A stretch of DNA of 21,274 nt from a virus. Position numbers and translations under genes: made by a program. The DNA is taken from IMG/VR virus record IMGVR_UViG_3300027972_000063, positions 1 through 21,274 of that record, one strand, 5' to 3'. Each line of letters begins with the position of its first letter. Positions within the stretch are counted from its first letter, which is position 1. A model generated the notes under the pieces. The model was not told the origin of the DNA. It saw only the letters and a program-made list of their open reading frames with translations, and did not search any database. Of this stretch, positions 2,243-20,911 are shown one piece after another.

Positions 2243-2262
2243 GGTCGGTTCTGGTTGGTTAT
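2243..2262 (-). promoter_or_regulatory. CAACC-type, SD-less translation leader
   Basis: The 20 nt directly before the ATG at 2242 read, on the minus strand, AACCAACCAGAACCGACC plus flanking bases. They are almost free of G and have no purine-rich SD motif. The AACCGACC core also occurs in the leaders at 4448 and 4090. I read it as an unstructured initiation leader; this is inference from the repeated pattern. Confidence 0.4.
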
Positions 2263-2265
2263 GGT

Positions 2266-2760
2266 TTAGCTGTGTTGTCTGCAAAAAGTGCCGAATATTT
2301 GATTTTCAGCAGCGCGTCGGGATTTGATGGCATCGTCCTTTTCAACGAACCTCCCTAAATGTATGGTTTTCCCTTTAGATTGTATGTAAGTTGTCCACTT
2401 TTTCTTTTTATTACAAAAGCTGACGCCATTGACTCCCGACCTTGAATTTTTATTGATTTTACGATTCATGGTATTTTGTGAATGAGTGACAATCCTCAAA
2501 TTGCATATTTTGTTATTCATTCCGTCACCATCTATATGATCGATCAATGTTGGCCATTCATTGTTGACGAAAAACCATGCAAGTCTGTGCGATAAATACT
2601 TCCTTCTTTTGATAGTAATTTGTTGATACCCGCCTCCAGATGAAGTGCCAGCAATTTTGCCGCTCCTTCCTGTTCCTGTTCTGTTCCATGAAAAAACGCC
2701 GCTTTCTGAATCATAAGTCAGAATCTCTTTTAGCTCTTCAATCGTGATTAAATTTTTCAT
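2266..2760 (-). CDS. HNH homing endonuclease with AP2-like DNA-binding domain
   Basis: A 164-residue free-standing HNH endonuclease. After an N-terminal NUMOD4-like segment (DSESGVFSWNR, residues 17-27), the HNH core runs from SHRLAW (57-62) through LIDHIDGDGMNNKICNLRIVT (73-92), with H75, D77, N83 and N87 as expected active-site and framework residues. Residues about 108-140 (SGVNGVSF...WTTYI...LGRF) match the AP2-like domain that often follows HNH_3. Such genes are selfish elements that cut alleles lacking them. The gene is visibly more A+T-rich than the replication genes around it, in keeping with separate acquisition, and it interrupts no neighbouring frame. The start at 2760 (MKNLITIEEL) is preferred over 2781 because the domain begins there. 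Confidence 0.93.
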   Translation of the reverse strand: MKNLITIEELKEILTYDSESGVFSWNRTGTGRSGKIAGTSSGGGYQQITIKRRKYLSHRLAWFFVNNEWPTLIDHIDGDGMNNKICNLRIVTHSQNTMNRKINKNSRSGVNGVSFCNKKKKWTTYIQSKGKTIHLGRFVEKDDAIKSRRAAENQIFGTFCRQHS

Positions 2761-2774
2761 GTTTGCACCCGAAT

Positions 2775-2802
2775 GCCCCACCCCGCTTTAGCAGAGTGAG
2801 GC
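2775..2802 (-). promoter_or_regulatory. stable hairpin in the HNH 5' leader
   Basis: On the transcript GCCUCACUC (2802-2794) pairs with GGGUGGGGC (2783-2775): nine continuous pairs, two of them G-U, around a 10-nt loop. No U-tract follows, so it is not an ordinary intrinsic terminator. It sits 14 nt before the HNH start codon, where a hairpin could dampen translation of the endonuclease. Confidence 0.5.
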
Positions 2803-2830
2803 TTACCTTATGCAATATACTGCCTGGAAA

Positions 2831-3520
2831 TCAATAGTCGTCGCCGCCGAGGATGTCAGCCAGCTCGGTCAGAGCAGCGACAAGTGCCGCGTCCTCTGCC
2901 TTGCCGTCGGCTTTCGCCTTTGGAAGCCAGCCTTCAATAAGTTTCGCCGCGCCTGCCTCATCGACTTCGCCGAGCTTCTTGCCCTTGTATTTGCCGATGT
3001 GAACCATGACCGTCTCCCAGCCTGGCTGTTCGGATTTCTCCTCGGAGCTGCCATCGGATTCACCATCGACCTCGCGGTCTCGGATGCGGGTGTATTTACC
3101 AGACGGCTTGAGCGTTGTCTTGTCGCGGTCGGGCGCCATGAAACTGATGTTGGCATAGGTTCGGTCGTCCTTCGTCTCATGCTGGATGATGAGCTTAACT
3201 CCGAAGCCGATGAGAGCTTCAAGATCAAACTCGCCAAGCTCAGCGGATGTCAGGTCGCGGCCCATCATCTTTTTCAGATCCTTGCGGAGTGCTGCCTTTT
3301 CGTTGAGGCTCGGCGTGTAGCCACGCGACCAAATGCAGAAGCGGCGGTCGTTCTCTTCGTCCATGACCTCGGTCTCGAAGACGAGGCGGAACTCGTCTTT
3401 CTCGCCGTATTGTGTCATGCGTTTTTTCATCTCGGTAATGTCCACCAGCACGGCCTTGATCGGCCCTTCGGTTTCTGGGTGCGGGGTGAAGTTGCTTTGT
3501 TTTTTCTCACTTAGTTTCAT
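2831..3520 (-). CDS. putative OB-like ssDNA-binding protein with GKYKGK C-terminal domain
   Basis: A 229-residue protein. Residues about 18-135 resemble a phage family with the pattern 'K-A-V-L-V-D-I ... YGEKDEFRLVFET ... WSRGYTPSLNEKAALRKDLKKMMGRDLT ... FDLEALIGFGVKLIIQHE ... TYANISFMAP', often placed among phage replication or ssDNA-binding proteins. An acidic/serine linker follows (150-166). A second segment starts WETVMVHIGKYKGKKLGEV (168-186), a GKYKGK motif seen in the accessory domains of exonucleases and other DNA-metabolism proteins. The protein ends ILGGDDY, an acidic tip reminiscent of SSB partner-binding tails. The function is inferred from these similarities and the early-region context. 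Its leader is CAA-rich with no SD. Confidence 0.6.
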   Translation of the reverse strand: MKLSEKKQSNFTPHPETEGPIKAVLVDITEMKKRMTQYGEKDEFRLVFETEVMDEENDRRFCIWSRGYTPSLNEKAALRKDLKKMMGRDLTSAELGEFDLEALIGFGVKLIIQHETKDDRTYANISFMAPDRDKTTLKPSGKYTRIRDREVDGESDGSSEEKSEQPGWETVMVHIGKYKGKKLGEVDEAGAAKLIEGWLPKAKADGKAEDAALVAALTELADILGGDDY

Positions 3521-3532
3521 ACTGTATTTATT

Positions 3533-3550
3533 ACGTTGTTGTTTGTTGTT
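3533..3550 (-). promoter_or_regulatory. (CAA)-rich translation leader
   Basis: Minus-strand sequence AACAACAAACAACAACGT lies 12 nt before the ATG at 3520. It has one G, no SD core and little capacity to fold. It looks like a CAA-repeat translational leader; function is inferred. Confidence 0.4.
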
Positions 3551-3561
3551 ATTGGGGAGAG

Positions 3562-3765
3562 TTATGGGACAAGTCGCAGCAGATAGACGGCAATGACTCC
3601 GATGATTGCTCCGGTGATTGTGGCGGAGACAATGACTGGCGTGAGCGAGCGATCAACGTTTGGTCTGCGGATCTTCGTCTCGTTGAGCGTTAGCTTGCTC
3701 AGGTCGTTGATGTGGAGGCGCAGGAACTTGTCCGTGCCGGGCTTGATGTCGTAGTTTTGTTTCAT
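3562..3765 (-). CDS. small membrane protein, one C-terminal TM segment
   Basis: A 67-residue protein with a charged N-terminal half (residues 1-40) and one hydrophobic stretch at about 43-64 (PVIVSATITGAIIGVIAVYLL). The C-terminus is LRLVP. This predicts a single-pass or tail-anchored inner-membrane protein with a roughly 40-residue cytoplasmic or periplasmic domain. No family is recognised. Its leader (ACAACAGAAACCAACAAGACACACC, reading 3790-3766) is again G-poor with no SD. A holin role is possible from size alone but unlikely, because it lies outside the lysis block. A superinfection-exclusion or membrane-anchoring role would fit the early position equally well. Confidence 0.65.
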   Translation of the reverse strand: MKQNYDIKPGTDKFLRLHINDLSKLTLNETKIRRPNVDRSLTPVIVSATITGAIIGVIAVYLLRLVP

Positions 3766-3804
3766 GGTGTGTCTTGTTGGTTTCTGTTGTTATAGACCCC
3801 CGCG

Positions 3805-3841
3805 CCTCCTCGGTCAACCGACCAAAGAAAACGCGAGGAGG
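3805..3841 (-). promoter_or_regulatory. nested stem-loop between two small early genes
   Basis: CCTCCTCG (3841-3834 on the transcript) and CGAGGAGG (3812-3805) form an 8-bp stem. Inside the loop GGTC-ggtt-GACC (3823-3812) can form a smaller competing hairpin. No U-tract follows. The loop carries TTGGTCGGTTG (3825-3815), exactly complementary to the leaders of the two genes just upstream. Its role is unknown; a regulatory RNA element is a reasonable hypothesis. Confidence 0.45.
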
Positions 3842-3855
3842 TTTGGGAGAATGTA

Positions 3856-4089
3856 TTAGAGCGAGTCCAAATCATAGATGGTAACAGCTCCTGATTTTCT
3901 GGCGTACAAAGTGCCAGCGTAAAAATACCGGCGCGCGTGGATGTAATAACTGACCCCGTTGCGTAGTTTGCGCACGGTGTAATCTGGTCTCTCATACTCG
4001 CCATTCGCTAGGTAGTAGGTGCCGGAGTCGAGGACTGCAATTGCTTTTTGCGCGTCGGCGCGGGTTGCATACGTGTGTGGTGTTGTCAT
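3856..4089 (-). CDS. hypothetical small protein (77 aa)
   Basis: A 77-residue basic protein, rich in Tyr and Ala (MTTPHTYATRADAQKAIAVL ... YYIHARRYFYAGTLYARKSGAVTIYDLDSL), with no recognised family or membrane segment. Upstream in-frame ATGs reach 4182 but read over the end of the preceding gene. The ATG at 4089 is chosen because it lies directly behind the leader shared with the gene at 4447. The opening MTT-Ala/Thr-rich helix resembles the start of that neighbour, so they may belong to a class of small accessory early genes. Function unknown. Confidence 0.6.
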   Translation of the reverse strand: MTTPHTYATRADAQKAIAVLDSGTYYLANGEYERPDYTVRKLRNGVSYYIHARRYFYAGTLYARKSGAVTIYDLDSL

Positions 4090-4116
4090 ATTGTTGGTCG
4101 GTTGGTGTTGGTTTGG
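4090..4116 (-). promoter_or_regulatory. CAACCGACCAA leader, copy 2
   Basis: The leader just before the ATG at 4089 reads ACCAACCGACCAACAAT at its 3' end. It shares 14 nt (ACCAACCGACCAAC) with the leader at 4448. It has no SD sequence and is nearly all A and C. The stretch between the upstream stop and this start is only about 40 nt, so the leader fills most of the gap. Confidence 0.5.
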
Positions 4117-4129
4117 TTTGGAGAGTGTA

Positions 4130-4447
4130 TTAGAGTGATTTGATCGCCGCTTGCAAATCGGAGAGCGAGTATCCGCGTGCAAGGCATGCGTTATTAGCAG
4201 ACGCCATATCTTTGGCTGTCCATGATTGGGATCTTGCCCACTCGCGTTCCGACTCGATGCCTTCGCGGGTCGCTAATGGAGACGCAGCTTTTTGAGCCTC
4301 AATCAACTCGGCAGCAAGCGCCTCAATTTGTTTGTCATCACTATAACCACCTTGTCCCTCATTGTGCAATGCGCGGTATTGTGCGCGGGTGGCGGTAGCG
4401 GTTGCAATGTCTACTTTGATCTCGTTAATGTTGCGTGCAGTTGTCAT
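4130..4447 (-). CDS. hypothetical helical protein (105 aa), first gene of the early block
   Basis: A 105-residue, Ala/Glu-rich, helical protein (MTTARNINEIKVDIATATATRAQYRAL ... AKDMASANNACLARGYSLSDLQAAIKSL). No family, signal peptide or membrane segment is seen. It is the first gene after the lysis block and follows a candidate terminator and a 13-bp palindrome. An ATG at 4480 in the same frame would place the palindrome and leader inside the coding sequence and encode an unlikely NLTNQPTNT start. The ATG at 4447 directly follows the shared ACCAACCGACCAACACA leader and is preferred. Confidence 0.65.
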   Translation of the reverse strand: MTTARNINEIKVDIATATATRAQYRALHNEGQGGYSDDKQIEALAAELIEAQKAASPLATREGIESEREWARSQSWTAKDMASANNACLARGYSLSDLQAAIKSL

Positions 4448-4470
4448 TGTGTTGGTCGGTTGGTTGGTTA
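4448..4470 (-). promoter_or_regulatory. CAACCGACCAA leader, copy 1
   Basis: Directly before the ATG at 4447 the minus strand reads AACCAACCAACCGACCAACACA. It is an A/C-only leader apart from one G, has no SD, and shares 14 nt with the leader at 4090. The shared core CAACCGACCAA occupies 4462-4452. Confidence 0.5.
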
Positions 4471-4473
4471 AGT

Positions 4474-4486
4474 TAGGCATTGCCTA
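4474..4486. promoter_or_regulatory. 13-bp perfect palindrome, operator candidate
   Basis: TAGGCATTGCCTA: two 6-bp half sites around a single central base. It lies 27 bp upstream of the first early gene start and just past the candidate terminator of the lysis block, a natural place for a regulator site. No regulator gene is visible in the window. Confidence 0.4.
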
Positions 4487-9403: not shown

Positions 9404-9418
9404 GTGGCGAAAGTCAAA
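9404..9418 (-). repeat. 15-bp dispersed motif, copy C
   Basis: Minus strand TTTGACTTTCGCCAC, identical to copies at 14454 and 16003; with copy B the identity is 17 bp (AATTTGACTTTCGCCAC). It lies 11 nt before the start at 9392, inside an 83-nt gap between genes. Confidence 0.75.
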
Positions 9419-14453: not shown

Positions 14454-14468
14454 GTGGCGAAAGTCAAA
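14454..14468 (-). repeat. 15-bp dispersed motif, copy B
   Basis: Minus strand TTTGACTTTCGCCAC. The TGA inside the motif (14466-14464) is the stop codon of the upstream gene, and the motif ends 21 nt before the start at 14432. Confidence 0.8.
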
Positions 14469-16002: not shown

Positions 16003-16017
16003 GTGGCGAAAGTCAAA
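16003..16017 (-). repeat. 15-bp dispersed motif, copy A
   Basis: Minus strand TTTGACTTTCGCCAC. The TGA within it (16015-16013) ends the glycosyltransferase gene, and the motif lies 20 nt before the start at 15982. Confidence 0.8.
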
Positions 16018-16585
16018 GCTCGGGAGCGGCGGTGGTGGCTGCGTCGTGGATGTAGGTATGCAACACCTTGCTGATGTGATGCGCGGTCTTGATCCGCTTT
16101 CTGGCTTGATGGCACCAAACTAGATCCTCGCCGTAATTGCTGAACCCAAAGACGCAGCCTTTGACCTTCTGGCGATTCCAAGCACAAATGTGCCACGGTC
16201 CGCGCAGGGTAATGCCGCCCGGGTTAAACTGACCGTCTTGGTTTTTGATCCCAAAATGCACCACGCTTTCCAAATTGTTGTAAATCGCTTTCTGATTGAA
16301 AGTGATCACATCGGCTCTTGTCTCAATGGCTTTCAATACCTCCGAAACGTAATCATCAGATACGTCGTCATCGTCATCGCAAAACGCAATATATTCGCCA
16401 TTGGCTATATCAACCAATGCCTGCCGTTTCTCCCCGATGCTGCGGGTGCGGTTGTCACTCAAGATTAGATGCTCGACCTGCCCCGAACTCTTCAGCGCGG
16501 AACTCTGTTCCTCGATGCGGGTTTGTAGGGCGTAGAGCTGCTTCTCCCTGCCGCGAATGGTCGGTGTCAGTATGCTTAGTTTCAT
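16013..16585 (-). CDS. family 2 glycosyltransferase
   Basis: A 190-residue GT-A protein. Strand 1 with the nucleotide-binding start is MKLSILTPTIRGRE; then LILSDNRTRSIGEKRQALVDIANGEYIAFCDDDDDVSDDYV (from 40). The five consecutive Asp at 70-74 contain the DXD motif that holds the metal and the nucleotide sugar. The acceptor half is short and ends HAATT-type without a membrane segment, so it is likely soluble. Starts at 16588 and 16585 are adjacent; one at 16624 would read into an A-rich run and is less likely. It would add a sugar to a protein, lipid or glycan acceptor. The acceptor is unknown; virion proteins are plausible because of the location among head genes. Confidence 0.88.
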   Translation of the reverse strand: MKLSILTPTIRGREKQLYALQTRIEEQSSALKSSGQVEHLILSDNRTRSIGEKRQALVDIANGEYIAFCDDDDDVSDDYVSEVLKAIETRADVITFNQKAIYNNLESVVHFGIKNQDGQFNPGGITLRGPWHICAWNRQKVKGCVFGFSNYGEDLVWCHQARKRIKTAHHISKVLHTYIHDAATTAAPEL

Positions 16586-16673
16586 CATTTTTCTTTTTTT
16601 TGTTTTTCCAAAGTGGGCATTCATTCCACGCTTTTGTATCTTTAACTCGGCTCCAGCTTCCTTTGTGACTCAT
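16455..16673 (-). CDS. small basic protein, frame possibly disturbed at an A8 run
   Basis: The ATG overlaps the stop of the large glycosyltransferase gene as ATGA, the normal junction type here. It opens into MSHKGSWSRVKDTKAWNECP, then LWKNKKKK, a plausible small basic protein. As written, the frame then continues out of phase through the next gene to 16455 and gives a low-complexity, unlikely tail. One extra A in the A8 run (on the minus strand A5-C-A8-G-A5) would instead end the protein after KNKKKEK at a TGA that overlaps the glycosyltransferase ATG at 16588. So the real gene is probably about 16585-16673, with either slippage or an indel. Function unknown. Confidence 0.45.
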   Translation of the reverse strand: MSHKGSWSRVKDTKAWNECPLWKNKKKKNDETKHTDTDHSRQGEAALRPTNPHRGTEFRAEEFGAGRASNLE

Positions 16674-18850
16674 AGTTTTTCAAGTTGTTTGATCCAGCAT
16701 CTGCCGGCCATGTTGTATTTGATGCCTAGTGATTCCAATGCTTTTGATACGCCCGGCGAGTCAGCATCGTGGCCGCCAAAGAATCCGCCTTTTTTGACCT
16801 TTGGAAGCCATGCCTCAATGTCGCGCTTGGCGCTGGCGTAATCATGCGCAGCGTCGATGAAAACGCCGTCAAGCGAATCGTCAGCAAATTGTGCCGCCGA
16901 TCCTGCGCTGTCTCCCTCAATGATCGAAATCTCGCGTGGTCCTCGGTTGTTTTTGAACTCCTCCAACACGTCAATCCTGCCGGTTTCGTCATCGCCTTTG
17001 AAGGTATCGACGACAGAGAACTTGATCAGCTTTTTGATGTCCTCCAGCCGGTCTGCAAGATAGACCGCGCTTTTGCCTTTCCAAGCTCCGACCTCTACGA
17101 ACTGCCCGCATTCTGGGATTGTTTTTGCGACGTAATCATAAACATCTCGGAAATCAAACCATCCGTGAATATCTGTCGATACCGGCAAGGAGGAAACTAA
17201 GCGTTTAAAAATGCCCTGCCCAGTCAGGTAGTGATATTGATCATTGCTGCGCTCATAGGTCTGATCTGACTCTGCTTTCCCAAATGCCGGGTGAACATGC
17301 TCGAAAACGATTTCTGCTTTTGCGTCAATGATTACGCCGTCCTGCGCGGCTTTGTATGAAAACCAGTTATCTGAGAACATCGAAAAGAACTCTGGATGAA
17401 AGAAATGTCCCTGCTCAATGTAACGTGCGCGGGTGATGATCGCCATGCAGAGCAGGTCATCTTTTCTGAAACCGTCAGAAATCGCCAAAACTTTAGGCTT
17501 CGATGTGTCGCCGATGGCGCGAATGATCGCTTCGTCCCAACCTTGGAATGGTTTCCAGTCGTCGCTGAGTTGAATTAGTATCTCGCCCTTGCATGATTGG
17601 GCCGCTGCGTTCCATGCACCAACGCACCCCGAGTTGTGCGTGCTGATGACGCATCTGGCGTTGGTCAATGGGTATGAATCCACGTCGTCAACATCAATAG
17701 CGAAGATATGCTCAATCGAATCTGGATTGGTTGCGGATCTCAGCCATTCCATTCTCGAGCGCCAGGCTTGCGCTGGTCGTCCTCGTGTAGCGTGAAGAAG
17801 TGAAATTTTCGCACCGTTCCGAATAAAATGATTGGTTTCGATTGCGTCGGCTTCCTCTCGGCGGTTGTTTGCGCGTAGAGCCATGCCACGCAGCCCGATG
17901 CCGAGTGAGCCATAATAAGGTCTGCGAAGGTTCCATGGCGGCTCTGGATGCATCTCCAGCCCCAGCATTGCCTCAGTCCAGCCAAGCGCTGACTGTGGGT
18001 CGGAAATTGTTGATGCCAATCCGAGCTCTCCGTATGCCTCGCGCCGGCTTGGATCTGTTGCAAGTGCAGCCACAAGCATTTGTTTTTTGCTGCCATCATC
18101 ATCGGCAAGTCTAGCGAGTTGGAAATAGGCTTCGTAAAGTTCATTTCTTCCGACTCCTTCGGATTGCACAAACTCAAGAGCTGCTTGGATCGCCTCGTCG
18201 TTCCGATCCAATGCAATCAAACTTTGGAAGGTGTGAAATTTCTGCGACACGGTTCTTTTCTTTTCCGGTATGGATTCGAGGATCCTTAGATTCCTTTCAT
18301 CTCTAGATGCGCTGCGTTTTTCGCTGGCATGAATGATTTCGGCGCCGTCGAATCTCATGTGATTCGTGCCTTCATTAAATTTCAAGCATTCATGCACCGG
18401 ATGTTCCCACATGGCAGATCCTTTGCGCCAGATCCTTTCTCTCCAGTTGATGATGTTATCCTCCGGCACGACGTAGCGCATCAAAATGCCGTCAACGGCT
18501 TTGTCGTTGATGTCGGAAATTAAGCGCCGGATTTGCTCACCTGAATCTTCTGTCATAATGTCATCGGTGTCGGCCCACATGATCCAGTCGCAGGTAGCTC
18601 GGTTTGCTGATAAGTTGCGAGCTGCTCCAAAGTCGTCAACGTGGTTCCAATGTCCGATCTTGTTGAAATACTCACCGATGATGCAGCCGCGACTTTGCGC
18701 AATCTCAAGCGTTCGGTCTGGTTTCTGGTTGCCGATTGCCCGGATTATAACGACCTCATCGAAATGGTGTTGGAATTTATCAAGAAACCTTTCGATGTAG
18801 TTTTCGCAGTTTCCAGTTATTACGGAAAGTGAGATTGTATCTTTTTTCAT
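16670..18850 (-). CDS. GT2 - helical repeat - GT2 - SAM methyltransferase fusion
   Basis: A 726-residue multidomain protein. Residues about 5-200: family 2 glycosyltransferase, with SLSVITGNCENYIERFL at the start and the acid motif WADTDD at 92-97. Residues about 205-335: helical, TPR-like repeats (FQSLIALDRNDEAIQAALEF ... LYEAYFQLARLADDDG). Residues about 347-545: a second GT-A-like domain (SLLHATRGRP, IDVDDVD at 385-391, QLSDDW at 427-432). Residues about 560-726: class I methyltransferase, with EVGAWKGKS at 586-594 (SAM loop), VVDTF at 613-617, DGVFIDAAHDYASAKRD at 661-677 and GGHDAD at 692-697. It is probably cytoplasmic and builds a methylated glycan. Start 18850 is preferred to 18880, which lies at the terminator tail. 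Confidence 0.87.
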   Translation of the reverse strand: MKKDTISLSVITGNCENYIERFLDKFQHHFDEVVIIRAIGNQKPDRTLEIAQSRGCIIGEYFNKIGHWNHVDDFGAARNLSANRATCDWIMWADTDDIMTEDSGEQIRRLISDINDKAVDGILMRYVVPEDNIINWRERIWRKGSAMWEHPVHECLKFNEGTNHMRFDGAEIIHASEKRSASRDERNLRILESIPEKKRTVSQKFHTFQSLIALDRNDEAIQAALEFVQSEGVGRNELYEAYFQLARLADDDGSKKQMLVAALATDPSRREAYGELGLASTISDPQSALGWTEAMLGLEMHPEPPWNLRRPYYGSLGIGLRGMALRANNRREEADAIETNHFIRNGAKISLLHATRGRPAQAWRSRMEWLRSATNPDSIEHIFAIDVDDVDSYPLTNARCVISTHNSGCVGAWNAAAQSCKGEILIQLSDDWKPFQGWDEAIIRAIGDTSKPKVLAISDGFRKDDLLCMAIITRARYIEQGHFFHPEFFSMFSDNWFSYKAAQDGVIIDAKAEIVFEHVHPAFGKAESDQTYERSNDQYHYLTGQGIFKRLVSSLPVSTDIHGWFDFRDVYDYVAKTIPECGQFVEVGAWKGKSAVYLADRLEDIKKLIKFSVVDTFKGDDETGRIDVLEEFKNNRGPREISIIEGDSAGSAAQFADDSLDGVFIDAAHDYASAKRDIEAWLPKVKKGGFFGGHDADSPGVSKALESLGIKYNMAGRCWIKQLEKL

Positions 18851-18889
18851 ATGTCTGAATCGAATATGGGATTTATTCATTTTTTGACA

Positions 18890-19846: not shown

Positions 19847-19864
19847 TTGATTAATTAGTTGAGA

Positions 19865-20911
19865 TTATTTTTTGAGTTGTTTTTTGATCTCGGCTTGATT
19901 GGCATTGTAATATGCGGTTCTTGCCGAGCCTTTGAGATTGGAAAGTTCTTTGATGTGATCAATTTCAGCGGATGCTTCTTCGTTTGTTTCAATTGCTTCC
20001 GGTTGACCGATTGCTGCGAGAGATTCGGTAATTGCGGCTGGAATTGAAGCCTTAACTTTTTCGATCTCGGAGTCCTTGGCAATGATGCTGGCTTGGGCTT
20101 CGGCAAGTGATGCCTCGGCTTTTGCTTTTGATTCTTCTAGTTCAAGGATGATTGCTGACAATCCAGACAATTCTTGAATCTTGTTCTGAGCGATTTCAAG
20201 CTCCGTGCGGATGTATTCGTTTTCAGCGATCGATGCTTCGAGTTTGGAAATCTCATCGTTGCCCGGAAATAGTTTTGAAAGGATTGACATTGGATTATTA
20301 GTATGCTGGGTATTTTTAGGAGATGCTGAACGAATGTCAAGAATCGAATCAATGAAGCCATATTCTAATGATTGCGTGGCAGTCATCCATGTTTCTTGCT
20401 TCATCATTTCGCGGATATCTTCAACATCTTTGCCAGTCTTGCCGGCGTAAATCTCAGCGATGTTCTGCGATAATCCATCAAGCAAATCAGCAGCTTTACG
20501 AAGTTCTTCCGCGTTGCCTCTGACTCCTTGTGATGCCTCATGAATCATCATGCGACCATGCGAAACCATTCGGACTTCGTTACATGCCATGCAGATCACG
20601 CTTGCCATGCTCGCTGCCATTCCGGTTACCGTAGCAGTGACATAGACGCCGCGTTCTTGGAGCGATTTGATTTCTTGATAGACTGTATAGCCGTCAAAAA
20701 TGCTTCCGCCTGGGGAGTTGATTTCAATCTCAAGCGTTTCGATCGCGTTTTCGGCGCAATTAGTGATCTCTCCAAAGTCAGCCCCAGATGCATATGCAGA
20801 TGCGCCGAATAGTTTGCTGATATCCTCAGTGAGTTTCTCGACGGAGAATGGGTTAATGTCCTCGGTCAGTTTGACTTTTCCAGACTTGTTTTCAATCGTT
20901 GTCAGATTCAT
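19865..20911 (-). CDS. ClpP-type (S14) prohead protease with scaffold-like C-terminus
   Basis: A 348-residue protein. Residues about 35-195 are a ClpP/S14-fold protease: INSPGGSIFDGY (64-75), the nucleophile in GMAASMAS (Ser101), and the catalytic His in RMMIHEA (His124). ETWMTATQSLEYGFID follows (173-188), where the third triad residue lies. Residues about 215-330 are Ala/Glu/Ser-rich and coiled (SKLEASIAENEYIRTELEIAQNKIQ ...), like a fused scaffold. In such phages the protease cuts scaffold and coat during head maturation. A longer frame begins at 21073, but its first 54 residues overlap the portal gene and are Lys-rich. The start at 20911 has a GAAGAAG just before it and a 20-nt overlap with the portal end. 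Confidence 0.9.
   Translation of the reverse strand: MNLTTIENKSGKVKLTEDINPFSVEKLTEDISKLFGASAYASGADFGEITNCAENAIETLEIEINSPGGSIFDGYTVYQEIKSLQERGVYVTATVTGMAASMASVICMACNEVRMVSHGRMMIHEASQGVRGNAEELRKAADLLDGLSQNIAEIYAGKTGKDVEDIREMMKQETWMTATQSLEYGFIDSILDIRSASPKNTQHTNNPMSILSKLFPGNDEISKLEASIAENEYIRTELEIAQNKIQELSGLSAIILELEESKAKAEASLAEAQASIIAKDSEIEKVKASIPAAITESLAAIGQPEAIETNEEASAEIDHIKELSNLKGSARTAYYNANQAEIKKQLKK

Follow-up and report, generated by a model that had tools for sequence, protein, structure and literature searches.

What starts protein synthesis at a block of phage genes whose upstream leaders are made up almost wholly of A and C and carry no Shine–Dalgarno (SD) core? The question is raised by IMGVR_UViG_3300027972_000063, a 21,274-base virus record that we analyzed over its whole length (hereafter the window). 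The genes considered here lie on its minus strand, in a block (4447–330) that contains a phrog_862 protein, an HNH gene, a VRR-NUC protein and small genes without assigned function; from this gene content we would guess that the block is early. A prediction made from the letters of the sequence had singled out the leaders before the starts at 4447, 4089, 3765, 3520, 2242 and 1593, and in each case we found the coordinates and the start to be correct, the leader to be A/C-rich and the SD core to be missing. Together with similar leaders at groES genes of the candidate host group, the six leaders suggest an alternative way of starting protein synthesis. They are probably SD-independent initiation leaders that stay single-stranded through the exclusion of G and most U, and that represent a mode also present in the hosts and concentrated by the phage in this block.

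The A+C fraction over positions −30 to −1 was 0.87 for the leader at 4448–4477 (gene 4130–4447, with an upstream gap of 115 nucleotides [nt]), 0.93 for that at 4090–4129, which fills the entire 40-nt gap ahead of gene 3856–4089, and 0.87 for that at 3766–3795 (gene 3562–3765). It was 0.80 for the leader in the 41-nt gap at 3521–3561, which precedes gene 2831–3520 (a member of the phrog_862 family, which has no assigned function, kept in relatives) and is of lower A/C purity than the others, 0.83 for that at 2243–2265, which is the entire 23-nt gap between gene 1769–2242 and the HNH gene behind which it lies, and 0.80 for the stretch at 1594–1623 ahead of gene 874–1593, which falls within the 3′ end of an overlapping open reading frame (ORF; 1590–1952). 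Pooled, the six leaders had base fractions of A.51, C.34, G.06 and T.09, compared with A.36, C.24, G.17 and T.23 for the remaining 23 of the 29 gene starts in the window (one of which, 9392, is probably 9383), among which A+C peaked at 0.73 (Mann–Whitney p = 1e-4 for A+C). Thus, 6 of 29 starts reached 0.80, all of them in this set. The absence of A/C enrichment from the rest of the phage, named beforehand as a finding that would speak against the prediction, was therefore partly what we saw; what some genes elsewhere had in common was a scarcity of Gs (3% G with 24% T in the capsid leader) rather than A/C purity.

The association with starts also held when genes were disregarded. When ATGs in any frame were considered, 7 of 344 on the gene strand had an upstream A+C of at least.8, and these were the six starts plus one at 4070, which lies 19 nt into gene 4089; the opposite strand had 2 of 410. 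Likewise, 30-mers with A+C of at least.83 made up 0.65% of the gene strand and were absent from the other strand, and 7 of the 12 clusters that they formed covered or ended within 3 nt of one of the six starts, with 1593 accounting for two of these clusters.

None of the six leaders contained GGAG, GAGG or AGGA between −20 and −4. The proposal that most other genes of the phage also lack an SD was borne out, with such a 4-mer found at only 2 of the 29 starts (8516 and 605), a frequency not above the 13.5% of random 17-mers that contain one. The same procedure recovered an SD-like 4-mer at 26 of 46 annotated Escherichia coli genes, a control comprising 46 of 48 coding sequences after two overlapping ones were left out. 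Inside the block, the HNH endonuclease gene (2266–2760) has a G-rich leader of its own (A+C 0.40).

To follow the leaders through relatives we anchored starts on orthologs, because unsupervised gene calling misplaced starts and blurred the signal; with such calls, errors included, large-gap leaders in relatives and host DNA were just mildly A/C-rich. For gene 3520, 57 orthologs yielded 30 distinct leaders with A+C of 0.77–1.0 and 3% G, although over their 30 nt the mean pairwise identity was 47%, the minimum was 19%, and 83% of pairs fell below 60%. Nine representatives that were mutually less than 60% identical still had A+C of 0.77–0.90 and 0–3 Gs each, whereas G rose to 21% at −60 to −46 in these relatives. 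In five loci (L098–L100, L112 and L113), CAA repeats ran up to the start. Thus, at gene 3520 composition is conserved and sequence is not, which is good evidence for selection on composition. At the major capsid gene, the leader (19847–19876, minus strand) is G-free (A.53, C.20, T.27), and the 44 distinct leaders of its 79 orthologs, at 46% identity, had 3% G and 24% T. For gene 1593, 30 distinct ortholog leaders averaged an A+C of 0.77. (The leaders inspected individually came from 32 of 34 and 34 of 43 loci in two ortholog sets.) Judged from these comparisons, the composition rule is clear at 3520, reduced to low G at the capsid gene, confounded at 1593 and loose elsewhere.

A and C do not pair with each other, which suffices to explain why the leaders are predicted to be open. 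Predicted folding energies were −0.3 to 0 kcal/mol for the leaders of 4089, 3520 and 2242, and the small hairpins predicted at 4447 and 1593 lay outside the last 26 and 47 nt, respectively. A weak predicted helix spans the leader of 3765; the other five leaders are predicted to be unpaired beside the start. The original interpretation is supported in part: open, A/C-rich, SD-less initiation leaders agree well with the composition kept at 3520, the predicted openness of five of six leaders and the likeness to groES described next.

To ask whether the feature belongs to the phage or to its host, we considered which host is likely. The only named phage matched by the capsid protein was Verrucomicrobia phage P8625 (24.7% identity, two records), which infects a Puniceicoccales strain. 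The capsid protein also matched at least 79 viral loci in IMG/VR, and a profile search found capsid homologs in 18 of 372 genomes of Opitutales, the one order searched as whole genomes; homologs of gene 3520 were found in 6 of the 372. Because of the capsid matches to P8625 and to Opitutales genomes, the host probably lies in or near Opitutales (Verrucomicrobiota). In this group the 16S rRNA retains its anti-SD: of 17 Verrucomicrobia-type 16S loci examined, eight were on contigs that end before the 3′ end, and all nine readable ones had CCUCC intact (eight as GGATCACCTCC and one as GGATTACCTCC). CCTCC was also intact in the 16S genes of three Opitutales genomes, although the phage's own host may differ. 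An exact 3′-end pattern matched 2 of 52 Opitutales genomes and the Rfam 16S model 3 of 14; since CCTCC was present in every readable 3′ end, these low counts most likely reflect 16S genes missing from many assemblies and a variable base upstream of CCUCC.

Ordinary host leaders, represented by a sample of 112 unambiguous starts between genes in three Opitutales genomes that carry capsid homologs, appeared SD-poor (an SD-like 4-mer in 14 of 112, compared with 8 of 112 in a control segment) but not A/C-rich, with a mean A+C of 0.55–0.57 and only 5 of 112 at.8 or above. Individual gene families departed from this background. Among the matches listed, from which 30 loci each were counted for groES (L406–L435), S20 and rplL (L436–L465), A+C reached.8 at 11 of 30 groES leaders (Fisher p = 1.5e-5 compared with the ordinary leaders), 16 had at most one G and 4 had an SD-like 4-mer, for an overall composition of A.49, C.24, G.06 and T.20. 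For rplL the pattern was reversed, with an SD-like 4-mer in 24 of 30 and none at.8. Among the 8 readable of 13 loci of rpsU, a gene with a strong SD in Bacteroidota, AAGGAAG was present in two, and the other six had no such sequence. A run of 18 pure A/C bases before an ATG occurred at 107 sites across the first 60 genomes in a list of 344, compared with 36 for the reversed pattern; at about two sites per genome, the extreme form is therefore rare in hosts. By eye, ten such host loci include two apparent secreted proteins of PEP-CTERM-like type and, at L359 in an Opitutales genome, a 73-amino-acid protein that resembles an inovirus coat protein and has a CAA-rich, SD-less leader. On these leader counts, the hosts use A/C leaders as a minority mode, strong at groES, and the SD appears to be a working mode as well. 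The choice originally posed between a phage strategy and a host rule thus comes out in between.

Alongside their composition, the leaders share words. The prediction had noted 14 nt common to the leaders of 4447 and 4089; the shared stretch is in fact 15 nt (ACCAACCGACCAACA) and ends two bases ahead of the ATG in both. We counted 82 distinct contexts of the word AACCAACC across the window and relatives; in 47 of them the ATG of an ORF of 40 or more amino acids followed within 16 nt. For 12 comparison words the corresponding share was 13–24% for eight and 26–43% for four that are close to AACCAACC; taken singly, CAACAAC had 27%, AACCGACC 26% and ACCGACC 16%, and CCAACCA and ACCAACC, which overlap AACCAACC, had 34–43%. 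Near-copies of the 4447 leader precede seven proteins that differ by eye: at 4447 in the window and in an L148 relative, at 4089 in the window, twice in L081 (one of these also in L088), and in L091, L482 and L485. In L081 (at 3282 and 3483), L088, L091, L482 and L485, the near-identical leader AACCAACCGACCAA (or AACCGACCAA) stands ahead of small proteins. Besides the conserved composition, there may therefore be a copied leader cassette. A 14-nt word before ATG was found in 13 viral stretches, 9 of which look like chance given their GC content and reading frame.

The mechanism that we envisage would run as follows. With G and most U left out, the RNA ahead of the start could not pair with itself, and a ribosomal subunit would settle on the single-stranded A/C-rich RNA beside the AUG, perhaps with the help of protein S1 or of direct mRNA-channel contacts. 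Leaders of this kind would serve the host group at some genes (groES), with the SD used at others (rplL), and the phage would exploit this existing mode, concentrating it in the block. An effect on translation seems plausible to us from the position of the leaders and from published enhancers, and involvement of S1 and raised output could follow. An ACAA repeat reportedly promotes initiation without an SD.

Several observations weigh against this interpretation. The feature is not kept in orthologs of 3765 (mean A+C 0.70 over 9 distinct leaders) or of 2242 (mean 0.56, also over 9 distinct leaders). In the 149 contigs compared, gene 4089 had no relative and gene 4447 just one, although its leader was of the same kind (A+C 0.87). 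Because the 1593 leader lies inside ORF 1590–1952 it is coding sequence, and its conservation is confounded by the protein constraint from this upstream ORF, which runs into the leader in the window. Of the 52 starts in P8625, 3 had an A+C of at least.8 and 7 had an SD-like 4-mer. Among host genes, S20 leaders were U-rich, with none of 30 at.8 and an SD-like 4-mer in 4 of them, and cold-shock leaders (11 of 13 loci sampled) were A-rich, with 1 of 11 at.8 and one SD-like 4-mer. A/C is therefore not the sole solution, and presumed high expression does not by itself predict an A/C leader. The host assignment is indirect too: scanning all genome contigs with the capsid alignment gave no relative, host-group genomes were reached through a 16S pattern, among the matches listed, and with the whole-genome search confined to Opitutales, hosts in other orders are possible.

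Among other explanations, the one that carries most weight, though we consider it less probable than selected initiation leaders, is a passive host rule in which the SD is little used, leaders merely avoid structure and A/C arises as a by-product of low G, with no recognition involved. The near-background frequency of SD-like 4-mers at ordinary host starts fits such a rule, as do the G-poor yet T-containing leaders of the capsid gene and of host S20. It does not account for the exclusion of U as well as G from the block (T.09), for the recurrence of AACCAACC and CAA repeats directly before ATG, or for the SD at 24 of 30 rplL loci. The exclusion of U and the recurring words lean toward a factor that reads A/C as such; the U-rich S20 leaders lean toward lack of structure alone mattering. 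Simple chance or a strand bias in composition is very improbable: the gene strand has a mild A excess (28% A, 26% C, 25% G and 21% T), but 30-mers rich enough in A+C are rare and more than half of their clusters sit at these starts, the ATG counts contradict it, and the feature is kept in relatives at 3520.

The leaders could also act as DNA, for instance as an operator, part of a promoter or a short homology for shuffling small accessory genes. This fits the near-copies of the 4447 leader ahead of small proteins that look different by eye, two of them in L081, but we consider it unlikely given that the leaders of a single gene diverge to 19% identity while keeping their composition, and that we found no promoter-like site in the 23–41-nt gaps and no regional excess (one site, inside gene 4447, compared with 1.7 expected). 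Improbable as well is a binding site through which an RNA-binding regulator or small RNA of the phage or host would control the block. The recurring words AACCAACC and ACCGACC would suit such a site, as would a precedent from Salmonella, where GcvB RNA targets ACA-rich enhancers (PMC3879156); however, no single fixed word is common to all nine divergent 3520-leader representatives, and an Rfam scan of the window returned no family at its threshold.

Initiation leaders of the kind proposed above could be part of something more specific. It is possible, if doubtful, that Opitutales possess, in addition to the SD, a dedicated initiation signal in the form of a G-free A/C leader that the ribosome recognizes through S1 or another factor. 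Such a signal would serve groES-type stress or high-output genes, and phages would have adopted it as a portable cassette of the form (AACC)n-GACCAACA-ATG. If so, internal phage genes would be started independently of the anti-SD. Two modes within one order, separable by leader composition, would be a natural system for asking what replaces the SD, and the phage 3520 and host groES leaders make this testable with dozens of natural variants. A more practical consequence is that gene finders trained on the SD may place gene starts wrongly in these phages.

How do these leaders compare with known systems? SD-scarce Verrucomicrobia with a conserved CCUCC have already been described (PMC10783764), as has A-rich, SD-free initiation in Bacteroidota, where Flavobacterium johnsoniae, with its AT-rich genome, favors A at −3, −6 and −12/−13 (PMC6847099). 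As in F. johnsoniae and SD-scarce Verrucomicrobia, ordinary intergenic leaders in the sampled genomes appear largely SD-less even though CCUCC is intact (PMC6847099; PMC10783764); unlike in F. johnsoniae, C is also favored and U excluded, and Opitutales keep the SD at rplL. A block on the anti-SD by bS21/bS18/bS6 also belongs to the known system. In Salmonella, ACA motifs near the start enhance translation, with S1 suspected, and the phage leaders resemble the enterobacterial ACA and CA-repeat enhancers of dppA, yifK and gltI in placing an A/C-rich stretch close to the start; the dppA and yifK motifs act beside an SD, whereas the phage leaders have none (PMC3879156). The tobacco mosaic virus omega leader, which the original prediction had invoked, raises luciferase 38-fold in E. 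coli (PMC13205671). The phage leaders are like it in being CAA-rich, with CAA repeats in some relatives; this likeness is compositional only. The plant HSP101 mechanism (PMC13205671) would not apply, and the leaders here lie in intergenic gaps of a DNA phage. In the open-licence literature we found no account of such A/C leaders from Verrucomicrobia or the phages that infect them. What appears to be new here is their presence in this group and its phages, the scarcity of SDs and the ACA/CAA enhancers being already known.

Other elements lie near the leaders. A strong hairpin with arms CCTCC/GAGGAGG is predicted directly upstream of the 3765 leader (3798–3838, minus strand), between genes 3856–4089 and 3562–3765. 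The 90-nt gap that contains it has a predicted energy of −29.4 kcal/mol, which none of 200 shuffles matched, and of 9 distinct ortholog leaders 8 carry the hairpin sequence. Upstream of the 4447 leader, at 4474–4485 (minus strand), is a small palindrome, AGGCAATGCCT, found in 11 distinct contexts including the window and, whole or in part, ahead of a block gene in L080, L081, L082, L088, L089, L094, L097 and L098. In 8 of the 11 contexts it is followed by a small hairpin whose stem varies between phages (TCGC/GCGA or GTTGC/GCAAC); this second hairpin is absent from the window. A TCTC word upstream of the 3520, 1593 and capsid leaders exceeds its frequency in shuffles; it is coding at 1593 and lies at a variable distance from the ATG at 3520. 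For the HNH gene ahead of 2242, none of the 149 contigs compared contained a start-aligned relative, and in several relatives a GC-rich stem with a T-run stands directly ahead of the 2242 gene in its place.

Farther along the window, TTTGACTTTCGCCAC occurs in three exact copies on the minus strand (9404–9418, 14454–14468 and 16003–16017) before presumed late genes, a number reached by none of 100 shuffles. When up to two mismatches were allowed, the window and relatives together held 45 distinct contexts, in 39 of which an ORF of 50 or more amino acids has its ATG beginning 20 or 21 nt downstream (distances of 17–23 nt were inspected first). The exact sequence with 20-nt spacing was present in 31 viral stretches, and its 13-mer was found in 13 of 132 Opitutales genomes, compared with 28 for the reversed control. 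TTTGACTTTCGCCAC looks like a candidate phage-specific late promoter or 5′ element. Adjoining the capsid gene, at 16013–18880, are two neighboring genes that by eye appear glycosyltransferase-like, the larger of which has an apparent methyltransferase-like C terminus.

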